61,059 nucleotides of DNA from a virus, in IMG/VR virus record IMGVR_UViG_3300006754_005499, positions 1 through 61,059 of that record, one strand, 5' to 3'. Each line of letters opens with the position of its first letter. Position 1 is the stretch's first letter. Shown here piece by piece: positions 8,361-53,106 of the stretch. The notes below the pieces were generated by a model. The model worked only from the letters and a program-made list of their open reading frames with translations. It had not been told where the DNA came from and did not search any database. The position numbers and the translations under genes were made by a program.

Positions 8361-11300
8361 TACTGGACTCCTCGCATTGGCAGCGTCACAGCATAAATCG
8401 TGTCGCAGGCGCCCTGGGGTTCAGCAGCCTGGAGTTCGGGCACGGCAACAGGGTTGGCCTCTTGATCTGCAGTGAGACGTCCTTTCACTATAAACATATC
8501 ATCAAACACAGTCATGTTTAAATATGAAGGGTGTATAACTCTAAGTGCATCATTCTGATATGGTACCAGGCGACAAAGAACATTGTAATCAAAATCTTGA
8601 GCGGTGGCCTTTTCCCAGCGAGGTGAATCCATTAATAAGACTCCGCCACTATCGTCTTGCATGGTATTGAATCCCTTTAACACTTGGATCTCCATTGTCT
8701 TATTCAAGTGAATGTCCACAAAGCCATCGTAGTTACGTGCCCACAAGTTAGAGGGGTTTCTGTAGCGATCTGGTTCTGGGTGTCCATTTGTTAGTATGAG
8801 TTTAACAGAGTTGGGTAGACTATTATATGCATTTCCTGCTTCCAGGGCTGCTTCGGCGCGCCGCCATTCGGGGCCATTAACATCAGAAAAGAGAAAGTTT
8901 ATATACTTTCTAGACAAAGATGTTTTCTGAGAGTCTAACAGCGCATCAAAGAATTTGGCAGTATCGGCAGAACTAGGTACTTTGAAAGTTCTGAAGTATG
9001 CATTAGAGCCCAGCTGAGCGCCGACGGCGTAGGGATCGAGGTAGCCAGTAAATGAATCATCCAAACCCATTATCGAAGCGGCGGATGGGGAATCGTCATC
9101 TTGTTGAACGACCTCTGCTAAGTTTTCTACTCCTCTAACCATCCTATTTAATAAGTAATTATAACTTGACTTTGTAAACACGGTAGCGTTCTGAAACTCG
9201 AATATACTATCAAGGGTGTCCCCAAGACGGTACCGGTCATTTCTATTTGGGTTCTGTCGGTTTGGAGACTGCGGAGGACGGGTATAAAAATCCTCTTTAA
9301 TAGCAGGCACGTTGTCTGTTTCAATAAGTTTATTGAGCAAACGTATGCGAGCAACCATCAGGTCATAGCTGCGAAGGCCTTCCATGTAATGCGCCGGGGT
9401 GGCAGCTATATTATACGCATGTTCAAATACAAATAAGTCCAAGTTCTGCAAGCTTTCAGGGAATCTTTGCATGTCTTCCATGGTTTGGTTAGAGTTACTC
9501 CCGTGTGCGTCCAGTACGATGTACTGTGGCGTGAGATATGAATATTGAGAGGGCTTTGCAAAGTCTGGGGTACCTCCGGCGTCGCTGCCGATGTTTTCCA
9601 AAATACCTCCCCAGCTGGGATCGAAAAAGCTCTTCTTCACTTCTTTTTTCGAAAGCGCGGTGATGTATTCATGGCCAAGGATTCTGATACCATCAGGGTA
9701 CCTTTCCTCCCACCTTTGCCAGTCTCCTCCGTCCGTAGCGCTAATTGCACGGGCATTGTTGGGCACCGTGTAACGCGCATTTAGATAGTAATATCCATTA
9801 GCGGCTGTACGGCCAGCTTGGATGGTTTTGCTGGACCGTCTTTCTATGGCGAAGTCCCGCGGGGGACGGGCGCCGGCTGGACGGGCTGCCCAGACCTCTG
9901 AGTTAGGGTAGTGTGGCTTAACCGCGATCGAAAGGAGTTCGTCAATTTTAGACATAGTGTTCTGTAACAAATCCATTATCCTATAGACTGTTTTTCTGGA
10001 ACAGGTACAGACCCCCAGAAAGCCTCTCAAGATATTGCTCACCTCTTCTCGGTTAAAACTAGACGGATCCGCAGAGAGAGTTGCCAAAGTGTTAATAAAC
10101 ACACCATTACGCTTATAAAGTCGCTGTGCAATCGTTTTGACCGGTTGCGGAATACCGCTGGCTGCACTCTCCATCGCTCGAATAAAAGAATCACTAGGAC
10201 GATTAAGAGCGTTGTTGTAGTTCCCTCTTACAGTATAGTTTCCATTGGCTTGGCGATCCTGGGCAACACTTATTCCATATCCTTTACCATCTTGGGAATT
10301 TTGGACGGCGTTTACTCCATTAACCATCAGAAGATTGTAATACTGTGATAAGTCGTTCAATAGCCCTCGTAACTGTGTTCTCCGTTCACTCAGATAACCC
10401 TGTGTTTTATCAAGTATTTTAAACCTGACGCCGTACTGGTAGGCTCCGCCAGTCAAATTGGCGGCGGATAAATCCTCTGCAGAGAAGAACCTTGCTTTCC
10501 CAGTTTGGTATGCAAAGTTAGCTTGTGTTGAGGAGGCAGCCGTAAACTCGCCATTATGCTTATTCGCTAGAAGATCCGTTACTTCGCGAAGTTTTCCGCT
10601 TATGGTCGAATTTTTATGGAACGTTCCGTCGATATCCGCACTGTCTATTACAATGTCCGGGGCGGTTGCAGTCTCTCTGGTGCCTACATTCGGATAATCA
10701 GTGTCTGGGCCTCCAAGTCGATTGTGGACCTGAAGATCTCTAATTTGATGCCTTATTACCTCCAAAGATTTAATTTCCACACGCGTCATCACCTCTCTTC
10801 TTTCTGGAGGGGAGAGGCGTCGGAAGAAAGCGCCTATTGGAGAATTCTGAAAAACGGCTGTTTCCATGTCAATTCCAAAAAACAGTTTATTGACTCGACC
10901 AGAGTCAGAAGTTATATGAATATCTGTCACCGGATCCAATCTTTGATATATCACATTATTGTTTTCTTGATTGACTCCTCCAATTGAGGGCAAGAACTCT
11001 TTAATATTCGTTAAACCCAAATTATACTCAAAACGCTGGGCCTTATCTATGATTCTATTGTCTTGTATTTTATTATTTGGAAGGTAGTCTATCCTTAAGC
11101 GGGGCTGAACCTTGCTTGAGTCTCGGCGATTCCCGCCATACCATCCGCGCTCTAGCTGGCCGCCACGCTCGTCCTCGCCAACATAAAGACCAGAATCATA
11201 AAATACTGGGCCCTTCCACTGTTCGCCGGATCGATAACCTTCAATATTTTGATCCACGAAGAATACACTACTAGTCCTTACTAATGCTCCGGACTCTATG

Positions 11301-13000
11301 ATGTTCTCCCCTGTTGGATTGCCGACAAAGAAGGGTGCGTATTTGCCGAAATACGTTGGGTTGAGCACAGTAGCTAAGTCAACATCGGCCGATTGGTTGA
11401 GCTGTTGTACAAACCCAACAACATTCAAATACGGTAATATATATAACCTCAAGCTTCTTGGGTTTGTTGCCAGGACTTGTTCAGGCAACTCAAAGTTAAT
11501 ATCGCATGTTCTGTTGCCGTCTTTATCGAGAACAGCCTCACGTTGAAGTTCGGAATATGGGTTGTTCCCCGTACTCATCATTTCGAAAATGTTGAAGACC
11601 TGTGCCACGATCCTACCCTGGGCCCGGCCATTTAATCCTGCGTCAACATAATCTCTGGGGTTTGGCGAATCAATTTTAAATAACTGGTTCCAACCAGTCT
11701 CTGTTGCTGCGTTCCTAAAAAGTTGTTCAACATACTCGTGAATCTCGCTTACCGGAAGGTGATGATTTTCCTCCTCTTTTACCCAGACAGCGAGGAACTC
11801 CAGTTGTTGTGCTAGTTGTTCGTCTGACATAAGAGTACTAAAAACCGTGTTGGCCGGCTGGGTTATCTTAACGTTAATTAGAGTCTTTACCGAAACAGTA
11901 GAGTCCATATCGTCCATATTGCTTTGAGCAGTATACAGCACAGATCTGTCAGTCGCAGCATCCCAAGCTTGTTGTCCCGCAATCTGTTCCCCAATCAAGT
12001 CTTGGTAATACAATACGCTGGCCCGGCGGACTATCTCATAGATGAATGGCAAAACAATCGTTTGTAACGCTGTATGATGGTGGCCGTCTAGTTCCTTGCC
12101 ACGCGGATATAAAGAACTGTAGACATCTTCTAGGTTTTTCAGACCTGCCAAAGTTATATTATAAGAGGGGGACGCTCCCAATAATAACTCTGTATCTGCA
12201 CTTAAAACGTATTCCGAAGATAAGTCTGGAGAGTTGATAAAGTTAATCAACTCATCAATTGCGAAATTTGGTAAGAGTTCGGGAGTGCCTGTGCGACCGA
12301 CGGCATTATAGGAACCGGGGTCATATGCTGCGGAGGTGCGGTATAACCAGTCACCCTCAGGAAAATTCCAAGGCTCAATGGGCCCAAATTTGTCAATAAC
12401 CTGGGCGTCTGTGCGCAAGAACCCATAATTCCTCCTGAATCCTCCTTGAGGATTATTGCCTCGATTAAAAACATCCTCAAACCTGGCGGTCTTCCAAGGA
12501 CCTTGTCTAACAGCAGTCTTCGCAAGGAACTCTTGCACAATTTTGTTGACGGCGTAAGCATGCTTAGCCTTATTAAAGATTTCCACCCAGTGAGCTAAGC
12601 GGTTAGCTGCGGGACGTGAATCAATTGAAAGGCGCGCCCAGGCCCAGTTTCTAAAAATTTGTAAGTAGCGCCCGTTATCTCGTGAAAAGTCTCTAACCAT
12701 TTCCAGGTAGGTGCCGGAGGGGCGATGAAGACGTGGATTAGGATCCCCACTCCACGCGCGAGCGATATACTCCCGACGTTCATCAGCCGTCAAAGCTGGC
12801 GAGGTAATATCATAAAAATCATCTACGGCGTTGCTTATCCTTGCCGCAGTCTCTGCTGCCCTAGGGTTAGGGCCCTCAAACCCAGTCTCCACAATATGAG
12901 GGTTATCTTCAATAATCGTGTTGCCACCCGAAGAAAGTGAAATACGTCGAACCCTGACTTCTGGGATTGTGGAGTCTACAGCATTAAGATAATCCGCCAT
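8360..13000 (-). CDS. very large hypothetical virion protein (1,546 aa)
   Basis: I do not recognise a domain in this 1,546-aa protein. It is soluble, with no signal peptide or membrane segment. Composition is even, with many Asn, Asp, Arg and Tyr residues and long predicted helical stretches between beta-rich parts. Residues from about 950 to 1000 contain the only clustered cysteines (CTC). It begins 2 nt after the stop of the 340-aa gene and ends by one-base overlap with the 927-aa gene, so the three are surely one transcription unit. Position inside the tail-gene block suggests a virion component; an injected internal protein is also possible. Confidence 0.7.
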   Translation of the reverse strand: MADYLNAVDSTIPEVRVRRISLSSGGNTIIEDNPHIVETGFEGPNPRAAETAARISNAVDDFYDITSPALTADERREYIARAWSGDPNPRLHRPSGTYLEMVRDFSRDNGRYLQIFRNWAWARLSIDSRPAANRLAHWVEIFNKAKHAYAVNKIVQEFLAKTAVRQGPWKTARFEDVFNRGNNPQGGFRRNYGFLRTDAQVIDKFGPIEPWNFPEGDWLYRTSAAYDPGSYNAVGRTGTPELLPNFAIDELINFINSPDLSSEYVLSADTELLLGASPSYNITLAGLKNLEDVYSSLYPRGKELDGHHHTALQTIVLPFIYEIVRRASVLYYQDLIGEQIAGQQAWDAATDRSVLYTAQSNMDDMDSTVSVKTLINVKITQPANTVFSTLMSDEQLAQQLEFLAVWVKEEENHHLPVSEIHEYVEQLFRNAATETGWNQLFKIDSPNPRDYVDAGLNGRAQGRIVAQVFNIFEMMSTGNNPYSELQREAVLDKDGNRTCDINFELPEQVLATNPRSLRLYILPYLNVVGFVQQLNQSADVDLATVLNPTYFGKYAPFFVGNPTGENIIESGALVRTSSVFFVDQNIEGYRSGEQWKGPVFYDSGLYVGEDERGGQLERGWYGGNRRDSSKVQPRLRIDYLPNNKIQDNRIIDKAQRFEYNLGLTNIKEFLPSIGGVNQENNNVIYQRLDPVTDIHITSDSGRVNKLFFGIDMETAVFQNSPIGAFFRRLSPPERREVMTRVEIKSLEVIRHQIRDLQVHNRLGGPDTDYPNVGTRETATAPDIVIDSADIDGTFHKNSTISGKLREVTDLLANKHNGEFTAASSTQANFAYQTGKARFFSAEDLSAANLTGGAYQYGVRFKILDKTQGYLSERRTQLRGLLNDLSQYYNLLMVNGVNAVQNSQDGKGYGISVAQDRQANGNYTVRGNYNNALNRPSDSFIRAMESAASGIPQPVKTIAQRLYKRNGVFINTLATLSADPSSFNREEVSNILRGFLGVCTCSRKTVYRIMDLLQNTMSKIDELLSIAVKPHYPNSEVWAARPAGARPPRDFAIERRSSKTIQAGRTAANGYYYLNARYTVPNNARAISATDGGDWQRWEERYPDGIRILGHEYITALSKKEVKKSFFDPSWGGILENIGSDAGGTPDFAKPSQYSYLTPQYIVLDAHGSNSNQTMEDMQRFPESLQNLDLFVFEHAYNIAATPAHYMEGLRSYDLMVARIRLLNKLIETDNVPAIKEDFYTRPPQSPNRQNPNRNDRYRLGDTLDSIFEFQNATVFTKSSYNYLLNRMVRGVENLAEVVQQDDDSPSAASIMGLDDSFTGYLDPYAVGAQLGSNAYFRTFKVPSSADTAKFFDALLDSQKTSLSRKYINFLFSDVNGPEWRRAEAALEAGNAYNSLPNSVKLILTNGHPEPDRYRNPSNLWARNYDGFVDIHLNKTMEIQVLKGFNTMQDDSGGVLLMDSPRWEKATAQDFDYNVLCRLVPYQNDALRVIHPSYLNMTVFDDMFIVKGRLTADQEANPVAVPELQAAEPQGACDTIYAVTLPMRGVQ

Positions 13001-13002
13001 TG

Positions 13003-14025
13003 CTAATCCTCACACGGCCCGAGACCGTCCTCCTCATTGAGTGGAATACCATAAACGTCTTCATTCTTTGCGTCGTCATCAGTAGTGCACTCCACACTTC
13101 GTTTATCAAAAATACCCTTTGCTGGATCGGCTGGCTTAAGCCTGCACATTATATCTTGGTCAATTTCTTTGTCCACAAATATATCTAAAAAGTACTCAAC
13201 ATAAGTAGAATCTAGAACAGGATTTATTGCAAGATTGGCATCGTCACTGGCAAAGGACATGGCCGAACCGGTATAATGACAGGTTGTGGCACGCTCGTTG
13301 TTCAAAAAGTCAACAGTACCATTAAGCTCAGTTACTTCTATATCAAAATTTTCTTTAGAAAAGACACCGTGAACTTCAAATAAGTCTAAGATCAGATCTT
13401 CTTTCTTAAAGATTATCGCACTGCGATCATTGAATACGTGGATTATCTCAACGTCATCAGAATCCTCATACCCCCAATCATCAACATTCTGGACAGTCTC
13501 TAATACACAATTCAGGTTAGCCGTAACCTGTGGAATACGTCGTGAAGGGTGGGCTGGGGGACCACCAGGACGATCAGCAACAACGCTAGAAGTTAGATAT
13601 GATGACGCACTATCAAATTGGTTACGTAAGGCACTAACCTTCCATGCGGGTATAAATTCGCTAGCTGGGCTGGCGGTACCAAGTGGGGGACCCAAGGCGT
13701 ATTCTTTTTCTTTCACGCTCTGAAATGGTATGAAATCAGTATCATTAATTTCAGGCTTTTCGGTGCGCACTTCGTTGATCACTTGTTTAACCGATGTTTC
13801 AGCGCCCACATAGTTTACCTGGTTTTTAATTCGTAGAGAACCTGTGATGCGGGGTTGTGAATCATTGCGAGCCTCCGCTACTCCGCCGGCATTTCCGTCG
13901 TAAATAATGTCGTCGTCAAAGAAACTGTAGTAGACAGGTTTAAATTTGCCCTCAGACAAAAGTCTTTTACCATGAGTGGTTAACTCAATATCAATGACAT
14001 CTTCTTTTTTATTATAAAACGACAT
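13003..14025 (-). CDS. putative virion structural protein with LTxxGKxLLSxGKF N-terminal module
   Basis: A 340-aa acidic protein. Its first 45 residues (DIELTTHGKRLLSEGKFKP, then FFDDDIIYDG) are of a type common in presumed structural proteins of uncultured phages and match the N-terminus of the 317-aa product of 4551-5504 in spacing and key residues (L-T-x-x-G, basic/Leu, G-x-F, two or three Asp, I-x-Y). The C-terminus is very acidic with a few Cys. The ATG overlaps the stop of the giant upstream gene by one base, so expression is tied to it. It may be an adaptor that anchors larger tail proteins, but that is inference from size and position. Confidence 0.7.
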   Translation of the reverse strand: MSFYNKKEDVIDIELTTHGKRLLSEGKFKPVYYSFFDDDIIYDGNAGGVAEARNDSQPRITGSLRIKNQVNYVGAETSVKQVINEVRTEKPEINDTDFIPFQSVKEKEYALGPPLGTASPASEFIPAWKVSALRNQFDSASSYLTSSVVADRPGGPPAHPSRRIPQVTANLNCVLETVQNVDDWGYEDSDDVEIIHVFNDRSAIIFKKEDLILDLFEVHGVFSKENFDIEVTELNGTVDFLNNERATTCHYTGSAMSFASDDANLAINPVLDSTYVEYFLDIFVDKEIDQDIMCRLKPADPAKGIFDKRSVECTTDDDAKNEDVYGIPLNEEDGLGPCED

Positions 14026-17000
14026 TATTCATCCCCTCCGTCGGCAGCCCCAGCGATGTCGCCGGCGGGAGCCGGGGGTGGCGCAGGCGCGTCCGCTGTA
14101 TACTCGACAGACGCGTCTATCTTAGCTAATTCAACTAAGGAGAAGAAGTCATACGGCCAGTTGTAACTGTATGGTGGTTCTGCGCTTTTCGAGCTTCCGG
14201 GCCGGCCGAAAAGCTGTTCGTAACTAAAGCGAGCGTCATCAGCGCTGTCCAAAGTTTTACGGTAATAATTCATCTTGGCGCGCTGTTTAACCTTGAACAC
14301 CATAAATTTAATATTTCGGATATCGCGGGTGCGGCCGTGTCGTTGCAGGTGAATAAGATCATTGAGTAAGAGGTCGTCACTAATCGTAGCCGTGGCTGTC
14401 TCCATCCTCTCATGGATTGATGGAGGCAGGTTTTGCCAGATATCAGTAACGTCAAGAGTCGTTAGTTGGTGTTTAAACTCAAATATAAACATCGAAATAG
14501 GTAGCACCGTGCCAGGGCGATTTTGGCCTTGTGGCCCGGCGCGCCAACCATCGTAATAGAGACAATTAAACTGGGGTGGCATGACATATTCACCCATTTT
14601 TCGAAATTGCTCGGCTAACTCGAAATAAGGATTGGAAGTAGGGAGAACCGTGTTCTCTTCCAGAAGCGACAAAGCAAAGTGCGCGTCTTGTGTAGAAATG
14701 GGATAGAAATCCTTGCCATCCGGAGTCTCTTGATACGGAATTGCTACAACGGCCTCTTTGATCTCTTTTTCAATTGCAGGCTTTCCAAGCGGTTCTGCTC
14801 CACGCTTGAAACCCATCAAATCAACGAGCGAGCCTGTAACGGCTGTCCGGACGGGTGGCGTATCTAGGTTATAGAGGCGCCCCCACTGTAGAAGCGATTG
14901 GTCGTATACATCAGCATTAACACTATCCCTAATTTCTAAAAAGATCCCTTCGCCTGGTGGCGGCGTGGCGCCATACTGGTGCCACATGCCAAAAGTTACG
15001 ATACTGTTGGCATCAGTATGAGTAATGGGGGGCTGCGGATAAATCCCCCTAGCTGCTAAAGAAGACGATCTAAAATCCAAGATAGGCGTTTCAAAGCGAC
15101 TTTGAATTACCAATACCTCCGATTCAGAATCGGAGAGCCCCTCTGGCGCTCTTGATATCGCACCAAATGATACATCCTTTGCTCTTACTTTTACCAGTTC
15201 TGCAGGGTTTTGAGAAATATTAAGGGATGCGCTTATTTGAGAGCCGTCCACCCACGCGGGGCCAAACTGTAAGGCGCCAACAGGATCAACTAGGCCGTCA
15301 AGATGATAATATTTCACAGTCATATTGGAAAGGATCTCATCCAACGAATAGACCTGCCCCTCGCCGGCGCCGCGGAAAGGTACAAACTCAAGCCGAGCAA
15401 TAGAAGGATAAGAAAGATGAGAAGGAGTAAAAGGAAAACATTGCCAGTTATAAATAGCAGCGTTGAGGCCGTCCGTCATTTCTTTGGAAGAATTAACCGG
15501 GGGCCCGAATGCAAGACCAGTGTAGTCAGTCCAGCCCGTCTCGCCGGCGACGCCCTTGCCCTGGATCTGATTATACATCATAGGAAAGTTTAGCGTCGAT
15601 GGATCGGGCGCGGACCCCATGTGCGCTGGGCCAGGAAGGGGCCCAGGAGTGCTACCCGTAGATACGTTTTGAGAAATTATAACGTCCATAGAAAAAACAT
15701 CAGCGACAGAATTTCCCGTATTACCAAAATTTGCATCCCCGTCAGGCAAGGAGACCAAAGAAGTAAGAGTGGAATCCTTCAAGAAAAAGTCAATTGTTTC
15801 GGCCAAGAAATTGTGCATCGCCATCTTATACCGACTATCGAAGGAACCATGAAGAGATGCGGTAGCATTTATCTCGGTCCTATTAATCTCAGGTTCGTTC
15901 ACACCACGAGTGGGGTGGTCAGCATCAATATATTGTTGTTCTATATCTCGTATGTTATTCAAGACTCTCTCTGGTTCCAGCAGGGACTCGAAGGGCGCCC
16001 GATAACTAGCGCTAAGACAGATATAAGAACCAGAGGCGTTCTTCCCGACGTACGCATTGTAGTCGGCATCTTTAGCTGTAGGGTCTGTTAAGAAGTCATC
16101 AGAACCAGTATAGATTGGCCAGTCAACGGCGAGACCCGACTTGATTGTATTATAAAGTATGCCAGGAGCGAAGAAAGGCTGTAAGGCCGCTCGGAAACGC
16201 TGATCGGCCGGGGGGTAGAAGCCGAGCGGTGCTATTCCGCGGCCGCCAGCTAGCCAAGGCGCGCCGCTGCAACTCATTGCCGGCCCATAAGACTGCGAGA
16301 ATAAAGTAGCCAATTGCACACTTCTTTGTGCTGGATAGAAGCCGTTATACGGCAAGAACTTTTTGATCGCTCGACAACTAAGGGTTAACCGCGTGGGGTT
16401 CATGTCGGTACCTTCGTTTATATCATCTAACACATCAAAGTACTTTAACATGTCTGTCAAAGAATATTCTTCAAAGAAACCGTCCATTGAACTACTAGCA
16501 ACAACGCCGGCGGGCAATGCGTTATTGAGTACCGCCCCAGTTAAGCTTAACATCCCCGGCACTTCTTCGTGCACCTGCGCGCCGCGGCCGAACGACCCCC
16601 AGGTGGGAGGCGTCGGGGGCCGGGCCCGGGACGGGTCCGAGTGGGGCTCAAACTCACCATTGCGTTCAGTAATATAGTAAGCCATGTGATCGCTAATTCG
16701 GAACTCAGGAACTATTGTATAATCCGGAGCTTTAACTCGAATATCAGCCGCATAGGCATCATACGATTCATAGTAGAAAGGATTCTTCCCCGCCTCGGCG
16801 CCGGCTGTCCATCGTACACCAGCAAGACCTCGAAATGTTCCCGCATCGGGGCCCGGAACACCGGCGCGATTGTAAGACACGCCCAAGCCAAAATGGGTTT
16901 CGGAGTCGCCGGGCTCGACGCTCGATGTGCCATACGCAATACTATATCGATTCTGCAACTCACCAGCTCTCCCGAAGGAGGACGGGACATTGGATGCACC

Positions 17001-20000
17001 AGAGACGTGACCGTTATAACGAGCATCCAACACCCATATACTCTGGGTCCCGATCGGCCATCCTTGCGAGTTTACATAGCGCCAGTAACGCTCGGCGGCG
17101 GGGATCAAGTCGCCGGCGGGCGTGTAGACGTCGTACCAGTTCGTTGGCGTGCGCGAGCCGCTGAGTGGGTGCCAGAAATCAACAATAAACGCTTCTCTCT
17201 GTCTGACTTTGGCCAAGAAAGCGTTCTTGCCGCGAGGGAAGATTGTTTCCTGATAGGTGAACTTTCTCAAGGCATGTTCCGGTGGCATATAGCCGTTCTT
17301 GGTGGCGTCCATGATATTTGTATGAACCTCGTCCACATCACGAGGCAATAAGTAAGTGTAAAGAGCAGTATTGACTTCTTCATTAAACGTCTCCATTTGA
17401 TTGGAGAAAGTATCAGTAAGAATAATCTCGTTCGGCGAGCGCTGGGGGCCCATCTCATGAATTAATGGCTTGTACTTAGACGTTACCATTGACTGTGTAG
17501 CATTAATCATGTATGCTGAGCGGGCCGCGAAGGAGTTGCGACGCGAATCTGCGTTATACTTGTGGTCATAATCGCTGCCAAGCTGCCTTATAGTTTGACG
17601 TGCAATTGGAAGAACAGATAGCTGACTCTCTTTCTTATGTTGCCTAGCAACTGGATGCTCACCTGTTCTAATTTGTTTCCATGAGGGATATTGATAGGGA
17701 CCGTTTCGGTGGTTTAAGAGTCCGTTGAGCATTCTCACTTCGCCCCCCGTCCGTGTGGAAACCGGGAACGCTGACCATATATCTACCAAACCTCCTTGAT
17801 ATATCTGGTCGGCGCGCTCGCCCAGAAGGCCCCAACTATAGCTCAAAGGATACCCTGCGATATTCGTACTCGAAGTAACTGGCTCATAAAGGTTGGTATT
17901 GAGGCCCACGAAATCATCATGAATGAATTGGTCAGCGCCCTTCTGTGCTACCGGGGTGGCGTAGCGGCGGCGCGCCTGGGCGTCGTCGGGGTCCACGTAC
18001 GTACCCAGATCGCTGCTACTAAGAAACGTTATGTCCGTTGAAGAAGTTGTGTATCCGAACGCATCCGAACTTAACATCGAAGAAGTTATCCACATATATT
18101 GTGAATCAGATTGAGGAATGGCATGCTGCACAAACATATTGTCATAAATGCGCGTGCCCAGAGTTGCAACGGTGCGGCCGCTAGCAGTCATGGAACTGCG
18201 CACGAAGCCGGCGGCGACTGAGTCGTGAGGGATCAAGGGGAAACTACCCGTGGCGCCATCGATTATCAAATCAGGTGTGTCACCGGGGGTGTTTCCAAAT
18301 CTCCACCACGCCTTTAAGGAACTGGAAATACCCAGTTCGGGGCCGGCGGCGAGGATGCCTCTCATAGACTGATAAGGGTTAACGAGACCAAATGTGTATG
18401 AATCAGAACCTATATACCTACACGTATGTTTGTTCGCAGTGACGGAGAGATATTCGTCATAGACTTGCATACCGGCCATTTCGCCTTTAAAGAAGGCGCC
18501 GGGATTGGCGTCGCCGTATCCGTCGGCAGAGGCCGAGGGCGAGCCGCCAACACACAGGTTGGGGACGCCGCTGTAAGTAATTTTAAAGTAACCTCCCTCG
18601 TCGACGTAAACTCCATCGATATACAAAGCAGCGGTGCGGCCGGAGTCGTAGTGCAGTACACTGACAAAATGCCACTCACCATCGACTATAGAATTTGTCG
18701 ATACTGCCGCTGGGGATGCGGGGATATCACCTTCCTCCTCATAAATAGCAATTTTTCCATCACTCTTTCGAACACACAACAAGAGTTCCAGGCCGGTGCC
18801 CCCCTCATCATAAATCGCCCAGACAGTACCGTAATCCTCAGAGGGGGTTTCCGCCTTTATCCAACAACCAATCGTAAAATCGATGTTGTAGCCGATGCTC
18901 GGCCCCTGGATGATATCATACAGATTCGCTTTATACATGCCGCTTGTACCATCAAAATAAGTACCCATACCCCCCTTGACAGCCTCCCACTTGCCCGGGC
19001 TTGGGATTATTGAACCAAGAGGGGCGTCAACGAATAACTGGGGATTGTTGTTTGCATCCGGATGTGGGAGCGCCGGCGATTCGAAGCGTGAACTATCCCG
19101 CAGCATGTATGGTTCCGCATTAATTCCATAGTCCATATAAGGAGCATTGCCCATTTGGTACCAAGCGACCAGCGTCCCAGAACATGGATGTTGGTTGAGG
19201 TCACAGGGGCCTGCTTGGTTGGCACCAAACTTATAAAGTTGTGTGATATCACTTCCTGTAAGTTCGGAATTCCAAAATGCAATATCGGTTATTGAGCCCT
19301 TAAATTCCGACGTCATGCCGGTATCTTCAGCGCCGATCCCAATTTTGGACGTGCCAGCATAGGAGGCCGATACGGCGCCATTAGCTACTGCCTTTCCATT
19401 CACATAAAGAGTAGAATAGGTAATGCCACCATCTCCGTTATAGCGACCGGTCACGCCTACGTGCATCCATTCACCCGCCTGAGCACTATAAGTGCTAGAG
19501 TTAATAGCAGACGCGCCATTTTGTGCCTCCACAAAAAATCGGCCAAGGGTGCCGCCGGATTCCTCAGCCCGGAGATGTATGGTGTCGAGGCCGCCGCCGG
19601 CGGGTCCTATGAAAAAAACCACTCCATCTTGCGAAAGTGAAGTAGGCACCTTTATCCAAGCAAAAGTAGAAAAAGAAGAGTTTTGAAGTCCTAATTCAGA
19701 TATAGCCAACCCAGACAAGTAGAGGTCATTTGTTCCATCAAAATAAATCGAATAATTGCTATACCACCGAGCATCATTCTCATACCTTCTGGCAACGTTT
19801 TGGTTAACTTTATGATATGAGGCAGATATTAAGTGCTGAACATTATCTAATTGGGCCGAGCTTGAAAGCGTATTTGCTTTCATCCCATACTTAGCGGCGT
19901 GTTGTGCAAAAAGAGAGTTTAATGGTTGGCGAACCGTGAGGTTACGCCACGGAAGCGCGTTGTATGGAGAGTACTCTTCTGAAGTGTAGTCTCGTGTTCC

Positions 20001-23000
20001 TCTCGCCATCACCTCTGATGAACCTGGGGCGCTGAATCTCTCGACAAAAACGCTCTTATTTGTAGTGCGGGTGGGAAGAGTATAATCAATAACTCCAGTG
20101 ACATAGGATGAGCCACTACTTGCAATCGTGAGGTTCTCTATCGAAAGGTTGTTAATCCTCCTTCCGCTTGTTTGCACCACTTGGTAATTCTGATCAAAGT
20201 TGCCAATCTTTGTGACACCAGAGCTTGTAACTTGTTGAATGTTTGCAATGTTAACCGGGCGCTTGGCATAGGTTTCCCTTGTTCTGTTGGCGAAACCAGC
20301 GTTCGCATCGGCGGCAGAGCCTGTGAAATCAATAGCACCGCCAGCAACAGTTATAGTGCCGGGGGAGGAGCCGACCTCATCGCCCATTATTATGCGGAAA
20401 CCTTCAGGACGGTCGTACCTCGTGTTAAGATCGCGTTCCGAGGATGAATAATTCACGTCTACGTGGCGATATTGGTAGCCTCCAACGTATTTCTCGGTGA
20501 AGGGACCCTGAAGTGGTATCTCATAATCAGGACCGTATGAATCATTGTGAAGATTGGTTAGTGCGGTTCCTTCAAAGCCCGCAACATCCTGAATCTCCTT
20601 AACGTACCCTGTGGACACGGAAGAAGAATAAAACGTAAATGGAGCGCTGTCTTTGGCAACCTCTGTCGGGGATCCATCATTAGCTGAGCCAGTGTGAGTA
20701 TAATACGATATCCTCTTTTTGGCAGCCGGATTGCCCGACGCGTCTGTGAATACTGGCTTTAAGACGTCATCGCAGTCTTCAATTTGTTCGAGATCGGAAC
20801 CTGAGATATATACGTAATCATGGTAAAGTTGTGTAGAATCTTCATCCTTAACGTTGTCGAACGTTGATAGTACTGATTTTTCTTTTGCGTTTGTTGGGGC
20901 GTTAGAACCCCCCTTTATATTTCGTACCTCAACAGCGCTGAATTTGTAGGGCGAGTCAAGCCGTCGATTTAAAACTTGTAATGAAGCAGACAGATACTCA
21001 GTCCTGTTCTCGTTGACTGCGGGATTCCCAGAAGCGCTGATTGCCCCAATCGTGCGCTCGGCGCGCTCCTTCCACCAGAAACAATTAACGTCTTGTTGAT
21101 TTCCAATACCACCAGTCAATTTTGCTGGAGAAGAACCGTTGGCTCCAGCAGCAACCATCTGCCCCACGACATCCGTAAACACAATTTCATTACCTGCAGA
21201 TCCGATCCTGGTCGCACTTACAGTTATCGTTGGGTTGGTTCCGAGCGTGGCGGAAATGCCTGCGACACCATTAGTCGCGTCACCGGCCCCTGTTCCATAC
21301 GCGACAGAATTAGAAGGTGACGGAGTGCCTCCAGTTATAGCGATAACGAGTCGAGCAAGAATTGCGGCGGCGGTGCCAGCCGTGCTAACTTCTACCTGAT
21401 TCGCGGTTCCGGAAGATGGGGTTCCAGACACCATTTTGACAGTTATATCGGTACCAGATACGCCGGTGTCTGTCGCAACATTAACTGTAAACTTATCATT
21501 GTCGCTGAAACCGGTTAATGTTAACAGATCAGCAAATGAGGCGCCCTTCGATGGGGCTGCGTGTCCAAATTTCCAGTTATATAGTAATTCGTTAATACCG
21601 CGAGCGGCGTCTTCAGGATCTGAGAACTTGCTCTCAAGTGTTGGGAACTTATTCCAATACTTATTCCTTTCGAGTACGTGGCTCTCCACCATGGTGCGGA
21701 CACCTTCAGAGAATTTTGCCGACGCTGGAATCATTTGAACCAACATCAGAGTCAGAGAACTGTCAATCCATTTGTAATACTCTAGATATTTTTCAAAATC
21801 TATAGTACTATTGGACACCCCTTCAAAGAATAGCTGACGAAGCTTTCCTAAGATCTTATATTCTTGACGATAGCGATTAACGGGGTCTCCAATCAAATTA
21901 TTGAAGTCTTTAATAGTGGCAAAGAAATCAATCATCTGGCGCGAGACTGCCTCGTACATGCTCTTTTCAATCGAGAAGTAATAATTAGTTGGCCTGGAAT
22001 CGAGAGTGAAATTGACGTCGTCCTGCGAAAGGATGTTTACCATCTCTGAACTATCAACGTACTCGGGTAATGTTTGTTTTGAGGCATACAAAAATTGTGT
22101 GTCCACGACAGTTGTCTGGTTGGCTAAGTAGTCCTCACCACGACCTGTGTGTTGGGATCTGAGCATTGGACCGAGCCACCCATAAGTGTTTGTACCACCT
22201 GGGATGGCTGTAACGGAACCCGAGGATACATCAGGTACCGCAAACCCTGCTGTGTATCCTGTTCCTCCGTCGCCGGCATCAGAGCCGGTCACGGTTGCAA
22301 AATCCCAATCCAACAGAAGGGTCTCTATTGAAGGAAGATAAGAGCCAGTGCAGTCTTGGAAAACATACGCATTTCTATAAGGGTGTGCAGCACCAAAACT
22401 AGTAGGATCCTTTGCGTGAGCCAGAATGGTTGTGTTGTCCAGTACGTCCAGCCATGCACGTGCAGAGGAAATCTTGGCATCTGACTTTTGTAGGGCCCCC
22501 CCCAGGAAGTTCGTCTTGTTTGCTCCAACGAAAACACGCTTCGAGGACGTCATGAATTGCTTCGCGTAGTCCCCATCCATGCTGGCAGTTAAGTAAAACT
22601 CGTTCTCAATCTGATTATAGTTCAGATTAACACCGTAAAATTCAACTTTGTATGGTTGGTTGTCTCTTGTTGGTAAGGTTCCCGATACCTCCGAAGATAG
22701 TGGATATGAAGACGGGCCGATCTTGACGGCGAAGTTCCAACGTTGGTTTTCATAAACGCCGGGGATCGCCGAAGACGTGAGAGCCGGATGGAAGAACCCA
22801 CCCGCAGAACCAGTCAAGATGAATCGCACGGCGCCGGCCGAAATATCTTCGGCGGCCGGGGTATAGTCTTTGGCAGCTAATACTTGGAAGTTGGCCACGT
22901 CTGGTGAGTTCCAAGCAACCTCTGCGCCCGTTTCAGACTCAGACGTCTGTTTAACCGTGTGTATACCAAAAATAGACGCCGTTGCAAAATCATTGATAAA

Positions 23001-25076
23001 GTAGTTTGTCTCGCTGACCTTTTTAGGGGCCGGGAAAATAGCTTCAGCCTCAAACGTCATACCCCAGCCGCCTGTAAGATGACCAGACCCTGTAATAAAA
23101 GGTACTGAATTAGCATTCGCGCTGGCAGTTTGCTGGTATACTACCGCGTTAAACCGATCGGGGTGATAAAAGTCAGCATACTTCTTTCTTGTTGCGCCGG
23201 CGCTTCGGTTATCTCGAATTTTATATGTAACATCACTTCCATATACTTTTAAATCTATAACTTCTCGGTCAATGCCGTAACAGCGTATTAAGTTGCGGAA
23301 GGATTTCTCTGTTCCTTTGGACTTATAGATATAAACTAAGTTATTGTAAATGTTTTCGTAAATTCTATTTTTAACATTGTAAATATCGTCTGCGAAGATC
23401 TTCTCATCGTTGCGAGCAGCCAACTTTTCTATAATGTCTGCGTCGACAAACATCTCAGGTGCAATTAATCCGACCGATTCAAGCAGTTCTTTCCCGAACG
23501 GAAGGGGTTTGGCGCTGGCACTAGTGTACAAGACGTTCTCGCGTATTGCTGGCAATGCCTCCATCTGGAGATGCATGCTATCAAAGAAGCTAGAGATAAC
23601 CTGAGTCAGGTTTTTGATTGCTCCAGAATCTTCTTCGATAATCCAGGCCGGAATCGTATTATATAGAGATGCCGGGTTTGAGTAGTCATAAACTGACCCA
23701 GTGGCCAAGAGCTTGGTGCGCAAACTGACCACGCTGGGGTGATCACCGTAGATAATTGGATCCTCGAATTCTATAGCAGAGGCACTTGACTCGATCATAG
23801 CTGACCCAGTATTCCTGGAGTACAAAGCCTCATAACCAGCAAACGTACCGTTAGTAATCCTGCCAGAGAAGTCGAGAGCCACTGAGTCTAAGCTTGAATC
23901 CCCGGTGATCCCCTCGTTAAACTTATAATAAACACCTAATTGTGTGTTAGCTGTGTCGCTGTTGGTGCCGCCGCCAACTTGGGAAAACCAATGGCGGCCG
24001 ACTTGTCGTGCATCACGCTTAGTCTTCCAGTATCTAAATTCGTCTACGGAACCTGAGGTCTTATACCAACCAATAGAACCAGTTGTGACACCAGGAGTAG
24101 TATAGGCGGCGCTGTTCAGGGCGCCGACAGTAGCTACCAGGGCACCAGTGATCTCATTGATAGCTTGGCCAGTCTCGGTAACTGTATTGACGATGGTTCC
24201 GTTTTCATAAACCTGATATGCTAAATCAGATCCGTCATTAACGACAGTGATAGCATAATGATTCCAAGACCCGGTGCTTGTCAGAGTCAAACCATCGGAG
24301 ATGGAATACAACATCGTAGAAGTTGCAACGCTTCCAGATTGCAGGCTGGCCTTGAGCCCACTAGTTGCGGCCGCACCATTGTTATAATAATAAACGTAGA
24401 AGCGCCCATACGGTGAGGAGGCGTCGGACCCAGAAAGTTGGGAGTTAGAAAGGTCGAAGAGTACCTGAGTTTGAGTGGTGACGTCCGGATCTAAATCTCC
24501 AAACTTTACCCAGAACTCCATCGTGGCGCCTGAAGAGAGATCGAATTTTAAGTTAGATTCTTGATTTTCAGTCGGTGACCAGACATTGGAACCACTGAAA
24601 GTTTTGTAAAGAGGTGTCGTAGTCATCCCGCTGGATGCGGTATGAGGACCTCCGTAAAAAATAATATACTCTTTACTGGTCGGATTGCCGGGCTGGGCCG
24701 AATCAATTGCGTATCCAGTAGAAGGGTTACCACCAAAAGTAACATACCCGTTCGTGCGAGGATACTCATTATTAAAGATGTATAAATCAACACCGGAAGA
24801 ACTATTCTCCCACTCTAATTTTTCTTGGTGTGAACCATCATAAGGATAGTTTTTTAAAATACGATTAATCGAATCGTCATAATACTTCTCGGCTGAACCG
24901 TATTTAACAAAATTTGACGCTGATGAGAAATCTACGTGTGGGAGGAACCGATTCTTCTTCTTAAGATAATCTTTTATATAGCCTACCGACTCTACTTCGG
25001 TGGCCACGGCCTCAAGGCTTTTATCCTCCAGGGTCGTGTTACTATGTTTCTTAAACAGATCTTTTATGCTGCTCAT
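14025..25076 (-). CDS. giant baseplate/tail-tip protein with three LamG-like domains (3,683 aa)
   Basis: The largest gene of the window. Residues 1-130 form a helical N-terminal part. LamG/concanavalin A-like beta-sandwich domains are visible at about 170-365 (MEFWVKF, then SWNHYAITV, then SVDEFRYWK), 1770-1950 (FSTFAWIKVP, EWMHVGVTG, ITDIAFWNSEL) and 2035-2220 (FTIGCWIKAE, EWHFVSVLHY, MAGMQVYDEYL). Around 582-598 the sequence IYKSKGTEKSFRNLIRCYGI resembles the conserved YR-x-GT block of P2 gpI-type tail proteins, which partner baseplate J proteins; a gp6/J gene lies two genes upstream. Residues about 1184-1325 look like an inserted beta domain also found in the 639-aa neighbour. The C-terminus is Pro/Ala-rich and acidic. 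LamG domains usually bind glycans, so roles in wedge assembly and host binding are both plausible. Start overlaps the upstream stop (ATGA). Confidence 0.8.
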   Translation of the reverse strand: MSSIKDLFKKHSNTTLEDKSLEAVATEVESVGYIKDYLKKKNRFLPHVDFSSASNFVKYGSAEKYYDDSINRILKNYPYDGSHQEKLEWENSSSGVDLYIFNNEYPRTNGYVTFGGNPSTGYAIDSAQPGNPTSKEYIIFYGGPHTASSGMTTTPLYKTFSGSNVWSPTENQESNLKFDLSSGATMEFWVKFGDLDPDVTTQTQVLFDLSNSQLSGSDASSPYGRFYVYYYNNGAAATSGLKASLQSGSVATSTMLYSISDGLTLTSTGSWNHYAITVVNDGSDLAYQVYENGTIVNTVTETGQAINEITGALVATVGALNSAAYTTPGVTTGSIGWYKTSGSVDEFRYWKTKRDARQVGRHWFSQVGGGTNSDTANTQLGVYYKFNEGITGDSSLDSVALDFSGRITNGTFAGYEALYSRNTGSAMIESSASAIEFEDPIIYGDHPSVVSLRTKLLATGSVYDYSNPASLYNTIPAWIIEEDSGAIKNLTQVISSFFDSMHLQMEALPAIRENVLYTSASAKPLPFGKELLESVGLIAPEMFVDADIIEKLAARNDEKIFADDIYNVKNRIYENIYNNLVYIYKSKGTEKSFRNLIRCYGIDREVIDLKVYGSDVTYKIRDNRSAGATRKKYADFYHPDRFNAVVYQQTASANANSVPFITGSGHLTGGWGMTFEAEAIFPAPKKVSETNYFINDFATASIFGIHTVKQTSESETGAEVAWNSPDVANFQVLAAKDYTPAAEDISAGAVRFILTGSAGGFFHPALTSSAIPGVYENQRWNFAVKIGPSSYPLSSEVSGTLPTRDNQPYKVEFYGVNLNYNQIENEFYLTASMDGDYAKQFMTSSKRVFVGANKTNFLGGALQKSDAKISSARAWLDVLDNTTILAHAKDPTSFGAAHPYRNAYVFQDCTGSYLPSIETLLLDWDFATVTGSDAGDGGTGYTAGFAVPDVSSGSVTAIPGGTNTYGWLGPMLRSQHTGRGEDYLANQTTVVDTQFLYASKQTLPEYVDSSEMVNILSQDDVNFTLDSRPTNYYFSIEKSMYEAVSRQMIDFFATIKDFNNLIGDPVNRYRQEYKILGKLRQLFFEGVSNSTIDFEKYLEYYKWIDSSLTLMLVQMIPASAKFSEGVRTMVESHVLERNKYWNKFPTLESKFSDPEDAARGINELLYNWKFGHAAPSKGASFADLLTLTGFSDNDKFTVNVATDTGVSGTDITVKMVSGTPSSGTANQVEVSTAGTAAAILARLVIAITGGTPSPSNSVAYGTGAGDATNGVAGISATLGTNPTITVSATRIGSAGNEIVFTDVVGQMVAAGANGSSPAKLTGGIGNQQDVNCFWWKERAERTIGAISASGNPAVNENRTEYLSASLQVLNRRLDSPYKFSAVEVRNIKGGSNAPTNAKEKSVLSTFDNVKDEDSTQLYHDYVYISGSDLEQIEDCDDVLKPVFTDASGNPAAKKRISYYTHTGSANDGSPTEVAKDSAPFTFYSSSVSTGYVKEIQDVAGFEGTALTNLHNDSYGPDYEIPLQGPFTEKYVGGYQYRHVDVNYSSSERDLNTRYDRPEGFRIIMGDEVGSSPGTITVAGGAIDFTGSAADANAGFANRTRETYAKRPVNIANIQQVTSSGVTKIGNFDQNYQVVQTSGRRINNLSIENLTIASSGSSYVTGVIDYTLPTRTTNKSVFVERFSAPGSSEVMARGTRDYTSEEYSPYNALPWRNLTVRQPLNSLFAQHAAKYGMKANTLSSSAQLDNVQHLISASYHKVNQNVARRYENDARWYSNYSIYFDGTNDLYLSGLAISELGLQNSSFSTFAWIKVPTSLSQDGVVFFIGPAGGGLDTIHLRAEESGGTLGRFFVEAQNGASAINSSTYSAQAGEWMHVGVTGRYNGDGGITYSTLYVNGKAVANGAVSASYAGTSKIGIGAEDTGMTSEFKGSITDIAFWNSELTGSDITQLYKFGANQAGPCDLNQHPCSGTLVAWYQMGNAPYMDYGINAEPYMLRDSSRFESPALPHPDANNNPQLFVDAPLGSIIPSPGKWEAVKGGMGTYFDGTSGMYKANLYDIIQGPSIGYNIDFTIGCWIKAETPSEDYGTVWAIYDEGGTGLELLLCVRKSDGKIAIYEEEGDIPASPAAVSTNSIVDGEWHFVSVLHYDSGRTAALYIDGVYVDEGGYFKITYSGVPNLCVGGSPSASADGYGDANPGAFFKGEMAGMQVYDEYLSVTANKHTCRYIGSDSYTFGLVNPYQSMRGILAAGPELGISSSLKAWWRFGNTPGDTPDLIIDGATGSFPLIPHDSVAAGFVRSSMTASGRTVATLGTRIYDNMFVQHAIPQSDSQYMWITSSMLSSDAFGYTTSSTDITFLSSSDLGTYVDPDDAQARRRYATPVAQKGADQFIHDDFVGLNTNLYEPVTSSTNIAGYPLSYSWGLLGERADQIYQGGLVDIWSAFPVSTRTGGEVRMLNGLLNHRNGPYQYPSWKQIRTGEHPVARQHKKESQLSVLPIARQTIRQLGSDYDHKYNADSRRNSFAARSAYMINATQSMVTSKYKPLIHEMGPQRSPNEIILTDTFSNQMETFNEEVNTALYTYLLPRDVDEVHTNIMDATKNGYMPPEHALRKFTYQETIFPRGKNAFLAKVRQREAFIVDFWHPLSGSRTPTNWYDVYTPAGDLIPAAERYWRYVNSQGWPIGTQSIWVLDARYNGHVSGASNVPSSFGRAGELQNRYSIAYGTSSVEPGDSETHFGLGVSYNRAGVPGPDAGTFRGLAGVRWTAGAEAGKNPFYYESYDAYAADIRVKAPDYTIVPEFRISDHMAYYITERNGEFEPHSDPSRARPPTPPTWGSFGRGAQVHEEVPGMLSLTGAVLNNALPAGVVASSSMDGFFEEYSLTDMLKYFDVLDDINEGTDMNPTRLTLSCRAIKKFLPYNGFYPAQRSVQLATLFSQSYGPAMSCSGAPWLAGGRGIAPLGFYPPADQRFRAALQPFFAPGILYNTIKSGLAVDWPIYTGSDDFLTDPTAKDADYNAYVGKNASGSYICLSASYRAPFESLLEPERVLNNIRDIEQQYIDADHPTRGVNEPEINRTEINATASLHGSFDSRYKMAMHNFLAETIDFFLKDSTLTSLVSLPDGDANFGNTGNSVADVFSMDVIISQNVSTGSTPGPLPGPAHMGSAPDPSTLNFPMMYNQIQGKGVAGETGWTDYTGLAFGPPVNSSKEMTDGLNAAIYNWQCFPFTPSHLSYPSIARLEFVPFRGAGEGQVYSLDEILSNMTVKYYHLDGLVDPVGALQFGPAWVDGSQISASLNISQNPAELVKVRAKDVSFGAISRAPEGLSDSESEVLVIQSRFETPILDFRSSSLAARGIYPQPPITHTDANSIVTFGMWHQYGATPPPGEGIFLEIRDSVNADVYDQSLLQWGRLYNLDTPPVRTAVTGSLVDLMGFKRGAEPLGKPAIEKEIKEAVVAIPYQETPDGKDFYPISTQDAHFALSLLEENTVLPTSNPYFELAEQFRKMGEYVMPPQFNCLYYDGWRAGPQGQNRPGTVLPISMFIFEFKHQLTTLDVTDIWQNLPPSIHERMETATATISDDLLLNDLIHLQRHGRTRDIRNIKFMVFKVKQRAKMNYYRKTLDSADDARFSYEQLFGRPGSSKSAEPPYSYNWPYDFFSLVELAKIDASVEYTADAPAPPPAPAGDIAGAADGGDE

Positions 25077-26992
25077 TCTTCTACTCTAAACTTGTAACTC
25101 TCTTTGCTCTCAATATATTTTCCGCTAAGGTAATAGAGGTATCGGACTGTATAGGAGTAGCCAGCTTCTAAAATACTGACATCGAAATCAAAGTAGCTCC
25201 CCGTAACATCATAAGATAACTTGGTATAATTATCGCTTCCTGTACCAAATGCTACAACTTCAAACTCGTCTATAGTGCGAGAAATATTATAATAGACGCT
25301 CTCAATGGTATAATTCGCGATCTCTTGTGTTACTTTTGTATATACATTAGGAGTCCAGTCTTTTTGCCTGGTGAATAATCGGAATCTTGTATTCTTTTCT
25401 TCTTTATTATAAGACGGCTTCAAATTGGTCATACTACTAACGATATCTGGGCTAGGATTATAATTCGAGGCTTGAAAAACTTTAGGGTCAGAGGAGCCAG
25501 TATGGAACTCCGTGGTATCGTTATGCCACATATCGAAAACTCGTGTCAAAGCAGTTGTACCAGTCACAGCAATGCTGGCTGAATAGATGCCTGTGGAAAC
25601 GATGCCCCCTGTGGCATTCAAGTCTGCTGCGGCCGCGACGTCTCCGCCAACGCTCAATTCTAACTTGTTTGTACCGGGAGTTGTATTAGTATCAGAACCC
25701 GAATACAAGCTTACAAAGATAGCCTTGTTAGTGAGGTTCGGGATTTCCTGCAACTGGCCGCGGACATAGTTATATAAATACAGCGTATTAAGGTTGTCGG
25801 CTGCTGTCGCGATACTACTGCTAAAATAAAAGTCGCCGCGATTGTCGGATACCGAAGAGTCCCATCGAGCTTCGATAATAGGGCGTTTGAAGAAGTACTG
25901 CGACCCCCGAGCAAAAAACTTTTTAGTGTACTGCGAGACGCTACTACTCTCCAGACTAGAGGTCAGCTTCACACACAGTCCATGGTTACTAAGGCCAGCG
26001 GTGGCTCCGCCTTTGATCCAATCTTCAACGAGGGGGGTGATATCTAGTTCTATATCTTCAGTGCCATTTGGCATTGCCACATCAAACCACGTTCTTGTGG
26101 AGGCATTCTTTATCTCATTGAAAGAACCGCCGTCTGTTGCGATCCCCTCAGTGTCAAACCAGGGTGTCCATTGGGAACCTGAGTAAAACCCTTGTACCGA
26201 CCCCGTATTCATCGACGCGCTAGCGTACGTCGTGCCGTCAACTAAGGTACCATTAATGTGCGTGTTACCTATTTGACCGGCTTCTGTTTGATACAGTGTA
26301 ACAATCGCACTTGAACCATCCCAGGACGCGCTGATCGGAACAGAGCCTGCAGCTAGGGCGCCCGTGAGTGTGTTGTAGACCGCATTGGCTAAGTTGGCCG
26401 CAGAACTCATATCCGAAAGACCCACCGAAGTTGCCGTTGAGGCGGCGCGGGCCAAAGAAGTATCACAAGTGGCTGTATAAGATGTGCCATCAGTGCCGCT
26501 GAGGATTAGCGTTTTTCCGTTCATCCCAGTATTTGCTGTGGCTATCGCCGTCACGGAACCGGTAGCGGCGACCAAAAGATCGCTAGCTTGCAGCCAGTTT
26601 GAACCAGTAGAGCCATACGTTAAATTAGAGTAAGCCTCCATGTCCATCCCATAACCTTCTTGCCAGGATTGAGATAAAGCAATTACGGTATATGTTGCAT
26701 CCCTGGGAATTGATGAACCATGGGGCGCGTTAAACATGCGTAGGTAAAAAGTCACGCTGCCGCTAGCTGGGATGTCTTCGTTTGTTCGATCGGTAGAAAT
26801 TGTGCTTATTGGAAATTCAATGATAGCTCGGGACAATTCTTGTGATGTGGAAGATTCCTGACCGAAAATATGGAAAATCTCCAAGATGTCGGCGCGGCCC
26901 ATATTAGATCCAGTGGCGCGAGTGCTTAGGTTGCTCTCAAAAGCATTTGTAATCGTGTTGTCGGCGCCAGCCGTATACCTTTTAATCGCCAT
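25073..26992 (-). CDS. putative baseplate/tail protein (639 aa), DNRLRE-like beta segment
   Basis: A 639-aa Ser/Thr-rich protein located directly after the gp6-like gene. Residues 50-115, with LSRAIIEFPIS followed by YTVIALSQSWQEGYGMDM, resemble the DNRLRE/disaggregatase-related beta fold, in which a W-x-E-G motif is typical; this is a weak assignment. Residues about 144-267 form an insertion (IATANTGMNGKTLILSG to about NTHINGT) that looks like the domain at 1184-1325 of the 3,683-aa protein: both carry an Ala-rich helix and a G-x-x-G-N turn. The ATG overlaps the gp6 stop (TAATG), and the stop overlaps the giant's start. It is probably a baseplate wedge or collar component. Confidence 0.7.
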   Translation of the reverse strand: MAIKRYTAGADNTITNAFESNLSTRATGSNMGRADILEIFHIFGQESSTSQELSRAIIEFPISTISTDRTNEDIPASGSVTFYLRMFNAPHGSSIPRDATYTVIALSQSWQEGYGMDMEAYSNLTYGSTGSNWLQASDLLVAATGSVTAIATANTGMNGKTLILSGTDGTSYTATCDTSLARAASTATSVGLSDMSSAANLANAVYNTLTGALAAGSVPISASWDGSSAIVTLYQTEAGQIGNTHINGTLVDGTTYASASMNTGSVQGFYSGSQWTPWFDTEGIATDGGSFNEIKNASTRTWFDVAMPNGTEDIELDITPLVEDWIKGGATAGLSNHGLCVKLTSSLESSSVSQYTKKFFARGSQYFFKRPIIEARWDSSVSDNRGDFYFSSSIATAADNLNTLYLYNYVRGQLQEIPNLTNKAIFVSLYSGSDTNTTPGTNKLELSVGGDVAAAADLNATGGIVSTGIYSASIAVTGTTALTRVFDMWHNDTTEFHTGSSDPKVFQASNYNPSPDIVSSMTNLKPSYNKEEKNTRFRLFTRQKDWTPNVYTKVTQEIANYTIESVYYNISRTIDEFEVVAFGTGSDNYTKLSYDVTGSYFDFDVSILEAGYSYTVRYLYYLSGKYIESKESYKFRVEE

Positions 26993-28809: not shown

Positions 28810-29208
28810 CTAAATAGTTTGAAATCCGGTATTTCTTACAGTTGAATTGGTCACCTCAAACCTGTCTTTTATGTTTATTCCAGGTATATGGTACTCGATA
28901 GAGATCGACAACAACTGAGTTGTGTCATCGAAGCCGATATTGACCGCGCTTAACTTAATAAAGGGCATATACTTGCGGACCTGCTGGTTGATACGAGACC
29001 TTAAATTTTCCTCAAGCGCATATGAGTTTTGAGAAAACAGGTAGTTTCGGAGTCCTACGCCAAAGGTTGGGTCCATCATCCGTTCACCAGGGGCGGTGAG
29101 AATTAGATTTTTTAAATTTTGTTTAAATACTTGCGTCAAAGTTGTGTTCATCACATAACCGTCTTCGGTGTCCCTCTCAAACGGCAGTGCTGGTGATATA
29201 AAAGCCAT
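28810..29208 (-). CDS. baseplate wedge protein, T4 gp25-like
   Basis: A 132-aa homologue of gp25/GPW, the small wedge subunit that helps start sheath assembly. The family block APGERMMDPTFGVGL (residues 39-53) corresponds to the conserved P-x-E-R-x-x-x-P-x-F-G motif, followed by the usual NYLF segment, a helix with LRSRINQQVRKYMP and a beta hairpin (ISIEYHI). Length matches T4 gp25 (132 aa). AGAGGA lies 7 nt before the ATG. It is followed closely by the gp6-like gene, its structural partner. Confidence 0.95.
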   Translation of the reverse strand: MAFISPALPFERDTEDGYVMNTTLTQVFKQNLKNLILTAPGERMMDPTFGVGLRNYLFSQNSYALEENLRSRINQQVRKYMPFIKLSAVNIGFDDTTQLLSISIEYHIPGINIKDRFEVTNSTVRNTGFQTI

Positions 29209-42364: not shown

Positions 42365-42365
42365 C

Positions 42366-47305: not shown

Positions 47306-47311
47306 CTGTTT

Positions 47312-49276: not shown

Positions 49277-49323
49277 AGTTCAAGAATACCATATAATGCC
49301 AAGATCGTTAATGGGCATCAAGA

Positions 49324-53104: not shown

Positions 53105-53106
53105 TA

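Follow-up and report, generated by a model that had tools for sequence, protein, structure and literature searches.

In the contractile phages studied, adsorption is mostly ascribed to separate fibers and spikes, and the wedge proteins of the baseplate are viewed as mechanical. The window analyzed here, i.e., the whole 61,059-base stretch of a virus record, harbors a tail gene which raises the question of whether both tasks may be joined in one chain. An earlier note on this DNA had proposed a 3,683-aa baseplate protein combining the gpI/gp7 wedge role with several glycan-binding heads of the LamG type. The reading frame itself is real: a single, uninterrupted, ATG-started frame of 3,683 aa was found at positions 14025–25076 on the minus strand, and the ORF call together with its relatives points to a giant of the baseplate-wedge type.

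Identification of the Giant ORF and Its Relatives

The giant showed zero matches to PHROGs, and nothing meaningful was obtained when P0001, the profiles A1 and A2, and LamG2–3 were searched against PDB sequences. Relatives were collected as 42 loci from a protein search plus the best 80 of at least 577 confirmed similar stretches from an alignment of the N-terminal core (N-core), and 103 distinct giants were examined for domain content. They belong to a large family of uncultivated marine phages, in which complete-looking giants range from ∼2,800 to 4,300 aa; one relative, L003, is an 81.8-kb IMG/VR contig carrying a 100% identical giant. Alignment on the window protein revealed that residues 1–1165 are kept in nearly all full-length members and that residues ∼1193–1327 and 1765–2310 are inserts which most members are without.

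The chain begins with a conserved N-terminal helical segment (residues 1–165; 24582–25076, minus strand), with an occupancy of 0.91–1.0 among aligned relatives, and ends with a moderately conserved C-terminal region (residues 2480–3683; 14028–17639, minus strand), which alignment and structure modeling indicate to be new to solved structures. The model of residues 2480–3670 (pTM 0.74, mean pLDDT 61) gave a best E of 1.6 in a fold search against the PDB, and the weak jelly-roll-like folds found there (E 1.6 or worse) were taken as noise. In BFVD, seven uncharacterized viral models were matched at E ≤ 1e-3, of which the only one with a name belongs to an uncultured marine virus and is itself labeled as uncharacterized. 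Two lineages have the giant read as two ORFs (L035/L041:13640–13780 and L026:15780–15930), with breaks near window residues 1390–1480 and near 2340, which could represent a natural split, a frameshift, or a sequence error. A prophage or host signal was seen in six genome bins, four of them with a strong match, and was judged unreliable. The locus L124 (CP070664.1 578495–601995) lies in a WOR-3 genome bin labeled as a chromosome. Homology there covers the end of the 639-aa gene plus the initial ∼1,380 residues of a giant and then breaks off; it may be a chimera or a degraded insertion.

Genetic Organization of the Tail Cluster and Placement of the Giant

The tail genes are located on the minus strand, in the transcription order 2,314-aa protein, gp25-like, gp6-like, 639-aa protein, giant, 340-aa, 1,546-aa, and 927-aa proteins. 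The gp25-like baseplate wedge subunit (132 aa; 28810–29208) matched phrog_261 (3e-22) and phrog_43 (2e-11), and the gp6-like baseplate wedge subunit (599 aa; 26992–28791) matched phrog_10646 (2.7e-20) and phrog_219 (4e-16). The 2,314-aa protein preceding gp25 (29261–36205) showed no convincing Pfam or PHROG match. The 639-aa protein between gp6 and the giant (25073–26992) has no family match and is 92% identical in the relative L004, and the three downstream proteins (5577–14025), without a convincing family match, are likely further baseplate or fiber proteins. BLASTN of the neighboring genes against cultured phages found no match.

The giant follows the gpJ/gp6 counterpart with one gene, that of the 639-aa protein, in between; extra genes are also present in Flavobacterium phage immuto and Microcystis phage Mel-JY01, with which the order gp25-gp6-X-(Y)-giant is shared. 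In cyanophage S-CAM1, the order is gp25-gp6-3,032-aa giant-gp8. The YKSKGT block, described in the earlier note as P2 gpI-like, is present at residue 584 (residues 584–589; 23310–23327, minus strand) and aligns with YSTKG of T4 gp7 and HKGT of P2 gpI. It lies in a KSKGT core block (residues 430–680; 23037–23789, minus strand), the HMM of which matched immuto gp109 (1.5e-20), Mel-JY01 (4.8e-18), and LR756508 (1.1e-17). A second wedge-core block (residues 990–1165; 21582–22109, minus strand), found in 103/103 giants, matched the same phages at 9e-6, 7e-9, and 7e-14, respectively. The 430–680 profile also matched the S-CAM1 giant at its DFYKVKGTDKS block (E 3.3e-4 in a ten-sequence search). The Y[SA][TS]KG block is kept in T4 gp7 and all six homologues compared with it, and T4 gp7 matches the wedge phrogs phrog_2885 (730–758) and phrog_17744 (646–758) at this KG block; both phrogs are also matched by the S-CAM1 giant. 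Direct profile links to the classical proteins fall below significance, with P 0.056 for hhalign against T4 gp7, aligned at the KG block only, and P 0.11 for a profile–profile alignment against P2 gpI (one comparison each). PF09684 (Tail_P2_I) gave no match at its cut-off in eight records of the giant's family, and reached 12.7 bits (E 0.024) at the KSKGT block of the LR756508 homologue. AlphaFold confidence was low over most of residues 512–622 and 1002–1165. Taken together, gene order and these weak block links suggest that the giant is likely a gp7/gpI-type wedge protein, in agreement with the placement given in the earlier note.

Like T4 gp7 (phrog_964) and P2 gpI (PF09684), the giant combines an operon place after gp6/gpJ with a KG[T/I] block, but it differs in length (1,032 aa in T4 gp7 and 176 aa in P2 gpI) and in its LamG domains, none of which was found in either. 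The S-CAM1 protein, a 3,032-aa virion structural protein (phrog_4406; phrog_2885, baseplate wedge), resembles the giant in its place directly after gp25-gp6, its KGT block, and the possession of an inserted domain; that domain, however, is YHYH (PF14240) and not LamG, and the rest could not be aligned with the profiles used here. Immuto gp109 (1,265 aa), Mel-JY01 WWT39511 (1,336 aa), and the jumbo LR756508 protein (1,404 aa) share the homologous wedge-core blocks and gene order, but show no detectable LamG1, no display region, and no homologue of the C-terminal 2,500 residues.

LamG-Like Domains of the Core

The LamG domains reported earlier are real, but their count is four and not three: LamG1, LamG2, LamG3, and a diverged LamG-like domain at residues ∼670–890, which is marked by the W-x-x-V at 780 and was left out of the earlier count. 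PF13385 (LamG_3) was assigned by Pfam to three stretches of the giant, with a whole-protein E of 1.1e-35. LamG2 and LamG3 pass the PF13385 cut-off, whereas LamG1 is recognized only through relatives and an iterated profile. The W-x-x-V repeat occurs four times (271, 780, 1870, and 2135), each within a LamG-like domain, against an average of 0.06 in shuffled sequences. Of the repeats called SVDEFR-type in the earlier note, the exact string SVDEFR is found only once (343); its counterparts in the other domains are ISSARAWLD (869), GSITDIAFW (1927), and GEMAGMQVY (2198).

LamG1 (residues 169–363; 23988–24572, minus strand), with SVDEFRYW at 343, was detected over residues 170–363 by an iterated family LamG profile (E 8e-46). 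In the giant it is below the reach of the Pfam LamG models, the sole Pfam model there being a Sialidase N-terminal/ConA-like one (0.0027), and PF13385 matched the segment holding LamG1 in 16 of 27 aligned N-cores of relatives. The fourth domain (22407–23069, minus strand) is beta-rich, with confident strands in the AlphaFold model; it has a homologue in 103/103 giants, and its matches to the LamG profile are confined to several relatives and weak (down to 4e-7). It is shared by Mel-JY01, whereas immuto has no match there. Structure prediction of the N-core segment followed by a Foldseek search of the PDB, as the earlier note had suggested, returned pentraxin, LNS, and neurexin domains (best E 8.3e-7), which indicates a concanavalin A-like beta-sandwich fold in LamG1, in the fourth domain, or in both.

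LamG1 is present in 102 of the 103 giants, the exception being L037, which is without the N-terminus. In a tree of 156 LamG domains, 102 of 103 LamG1 copies clustered together and away from every other LamG (support 0.81), and the odd copy is apparently a LamG inserted inside LamG1 of L012. LamG folds are often structural or protein-binding, and LamG_3 is a promiscuous fold. As nearly every giant has LamG1 and the fourth domain in conserved form, and as LamG1 forms one clade, both are probably structural parts of the core. Elements of the type YYKFNEG (23910–23930), AWYQMG (19149–19172), and AWWRFG (18294–18317) were observed after LamG1, LamG2, and LamG3, respectively; since such an element precedes LamG_3 domains, a permuted arrangement is possible.

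Accessory Domains and Their Sites

In the relatives, accessory domains of the LamG, MAM, or reelin-like type occur at about six sites (in window numbering). Site B (residues 1190–1302) holds in the window protein a ∼135-aa G/A/T-rich insert (residues 1193–1327; 21096–21500, minus strand); this insert gave no Pfam match and no tblastn match to cultured phages, and is missing from most relatives, including the 92% relative L004. In L012, L019, L024, and L094, the same site holds LamG. Site C (residues ∼1562–1589; 20310–20393, minus strand), empty in the window protein, carries LamG in L004, L005, L012, L072, and L110 and a MAM domain in L034 (PF00629, 31.7 bits, above cut-off). Site D (residues ∼1647–1673; 20058–20138, minus strand), also empty here, carries LamG in L086, L094, L112, and L052 and a 183-aa reelin-type domain in L095, the match to which lies under the cut-off (E 3.5e-4). 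Site E (residues ∼1765–2310) is occupied by the insert with LamG2 (residues 1789–1949; 19230–19712, minus strand; Pfam 5.4e-21 over residues ∼1789–1943) and LamG3 (residues 2064–2209; 18450–18887, minus strand; Pfam 1.0e-14 over residues ∼2063–2211), which is absent from most relatives, and tblastn of LamG2–3 against cultured phages gave no match. Site F (residues ∼2426–2444; 17745–17801, minus strand), empty here, carries LamG in L013, L112, and L052. The sixth site lies inside LamG1, near residues 324–331, and contains LamG in L012 only.

Accessory LamG domains behind the 990–1165 block were found in at least 28 of the 103 giants, with one to three copies each, a lower bound since contig ends cut giants. 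In the tree, the closest neighbors of these domains often belonged to a different site or to a separate protein of 1,048 aa with four LamG domains, although individual neighbor pairs are weak evidence because tree distances are long. That protein is encoded on the minus strand of the genome of L013, at L151 (G008:C1:63500–68000).

Domain Turnover Between Close Relatives

In close pairs with N-cores 92–100% identical, the middle of the giant differs by whole domains or drops to 15–35% identity. The window protein and L004 are 92% identical in the N-core, and their middle falls to 23–55% identity, interrupted by a 95% block; besides being without the site B insert, L004 has one LamG extra at site C. 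L095 and the near-identical L108 differ by 42 mismatches over ∼3,690 residues and by the clean 183-aa reelin-like insertion in L095, and L008 and L042, with an N-core identity of 94%, show 15% in one window of the middle. The pattern does not hold for all pairs, and in some the C-terminal part diverges as much as the middle. The giant is hypervariable with respect to neighboring genes in close relatives, as is expected of a receptor-binding protein, though variation in the middle region can also stem from relaxed constraint. Separate tail genes diversify too, a 1,078-aa downstream gene showing 16–24% identity in one block.

Proposed Role of the Giant and Alternative Explanations

It is fairly probable that the giant is a wedge-type gp7/gpI core grown to giant size, with structural core LamG domains and variable lectin-like cassettes serving as receptor-binding modules. 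The phage would be T4-like with a contractile tail, and the protein its enlarged wedge protein of the gp7/gpI type. Residues 1–1165 would form a fixed wedge core, comprising the helical segment, LamG1, the KSKGT block, the second LamG-like domain, and a helical block, which probably packs beside gp6 and gp25. Residues ∼1165–2480 would face outward as a display region and offer at least five sites (the sixth, in LamG1, being seen once), where whole beta-sandwich domains (LamG, MAM, and reelin-like) may be gained, lost, and exchanged. Glycans of the host surface or capsule are the likely ligands of these accessory domains, which would act alongside separate fiber proteins; as separate fiber-like genes also diversify, binding would be divided between them and the giant. 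The several glycan-binding heads of the earlier note hold up in part: the chain joins the core with several LamG-like domains, and part of these show the variation of receptor-binding modules, but only LamG2 and LamG3 behave as variable heads, LamG1 and the fourth domain appearing structural. A wider reading, tentative and with somewhat less than an even chance, is that the wedge protein acts as a docking board in a whole clade of abundant marine phages, with about six fixed sites at which LamG, MAM, and reelin-like cassettes can replace one another; the pool of such cassettes would supply separate LamG-repeat proteins as well. If so, host or capsule recognition would be retuned by domain swaps in the baseplate itself.

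A fusion artifact of metagenome assembly might be suspected, as the window is a metagenomic contig and the gene is split in two lineages, but its probability is negligible and it is refuted by independent contigs: the 103 distinct giants come from many samples with one architecture, and an identical copy exists in a second record. The giant could instead be a fiber or two-layer-baseplate protein (VrlC-like) located beside the wedge, the KSKGT likeness to gpI/gp7 having arisen by chance. VrlC is said to replace gp7 in pelagi- and cyanomyophages (PMC7029224), and the weak profile–profile scores to gpI and gp7 would fit such an assignment. Chance, however, sits poorly with a likeness that four comparisons place in one and the same block, and with a position after gp6 in the order seen in T4, P2, and S-CAM1; this explanation is quite unlikely.

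Somewhat more credible, but still unlikely, is that all the LamG-like domains are structural, stabilizing the baseplate or binding phage proteins or fibers with no host-binding role, and that the middle varies by drift, as a loosely constrained periphery would. LamG1 and the fourth domain, near universal and conserved, fit this explanation, as do the promiscuity of the LamG_3 fold and the fact that accessory LamG was not seen in 75 of 103 relatives, many of which are truncated so that the proportion observed to carry accessory LamG is a minimum. It is opposed by the clean gain and loss of whole domains between near-identical phages, by single sites that hold LamG in one phage and a MAM or reelin-like domain in another, and by nearest neighbors spread across sites and genes. 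These features exceed what point drift would give and are more like those of receptor-binding modules.

Comparison With Known Systems

The proposed wedge core with variable lectin-like cassettes has precedents in principle. Gp119 of phage Vp4, a CBM-bearing baseplate wedge protein, decorates Bacillus cereus cells, whereas its CBM-less Deep-Blue homologue does not (PMC11406892). As proposed for the giant, accessory domains of a carbohydrate-binding type are part of a wedge protein in a myophage and are missing in a close homologue; Gp119 is an 831-aa herellevirus protein with CBM16-like and other modules, and the likeness lies in architecture, homology not being claimed. In Pseudomonas phage K8, a mutant putative wedge protein binds core oligosaccharide (PMC9887876), and pelagi- and cyanomyophages were reported to be without T4 gp7 and to carry YHYH and concanavalin A domains in structural proteins that were not identified (PMC7029224). 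Evolved Dit of siphophages similarly has sugar-binding modules inserted into a structural baseplate protein, but it is a distal tail protein of non-contractile tails, in phages of Gram-positive hosts. Owing to these precedents, the principle is already known; the fixed core LamG pair and the exchange at several sites along a single giant chain have not been described, as far as searched. In this family, which is frequent in marine viromes, the largest wedge-type protein turns over as a receptor-binding module is expected to do. This suggests that the baseplate itself takes on some of the binding to the host surface. The family offers expressible domains with testable ligands, as well as natural variant pairs differing by a single domain.

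Other Genes of the Window

Positions 40396–55730 of the window contain genes for nucleotide-sugar epimerases (two adjacent paralogues), UDP-glucose dehydrogenase, NAD synthetase, and several glycosyltransferases. This run is flanked by a late-sigma-like gene (38880–39629) and PhoH (57818–59131).
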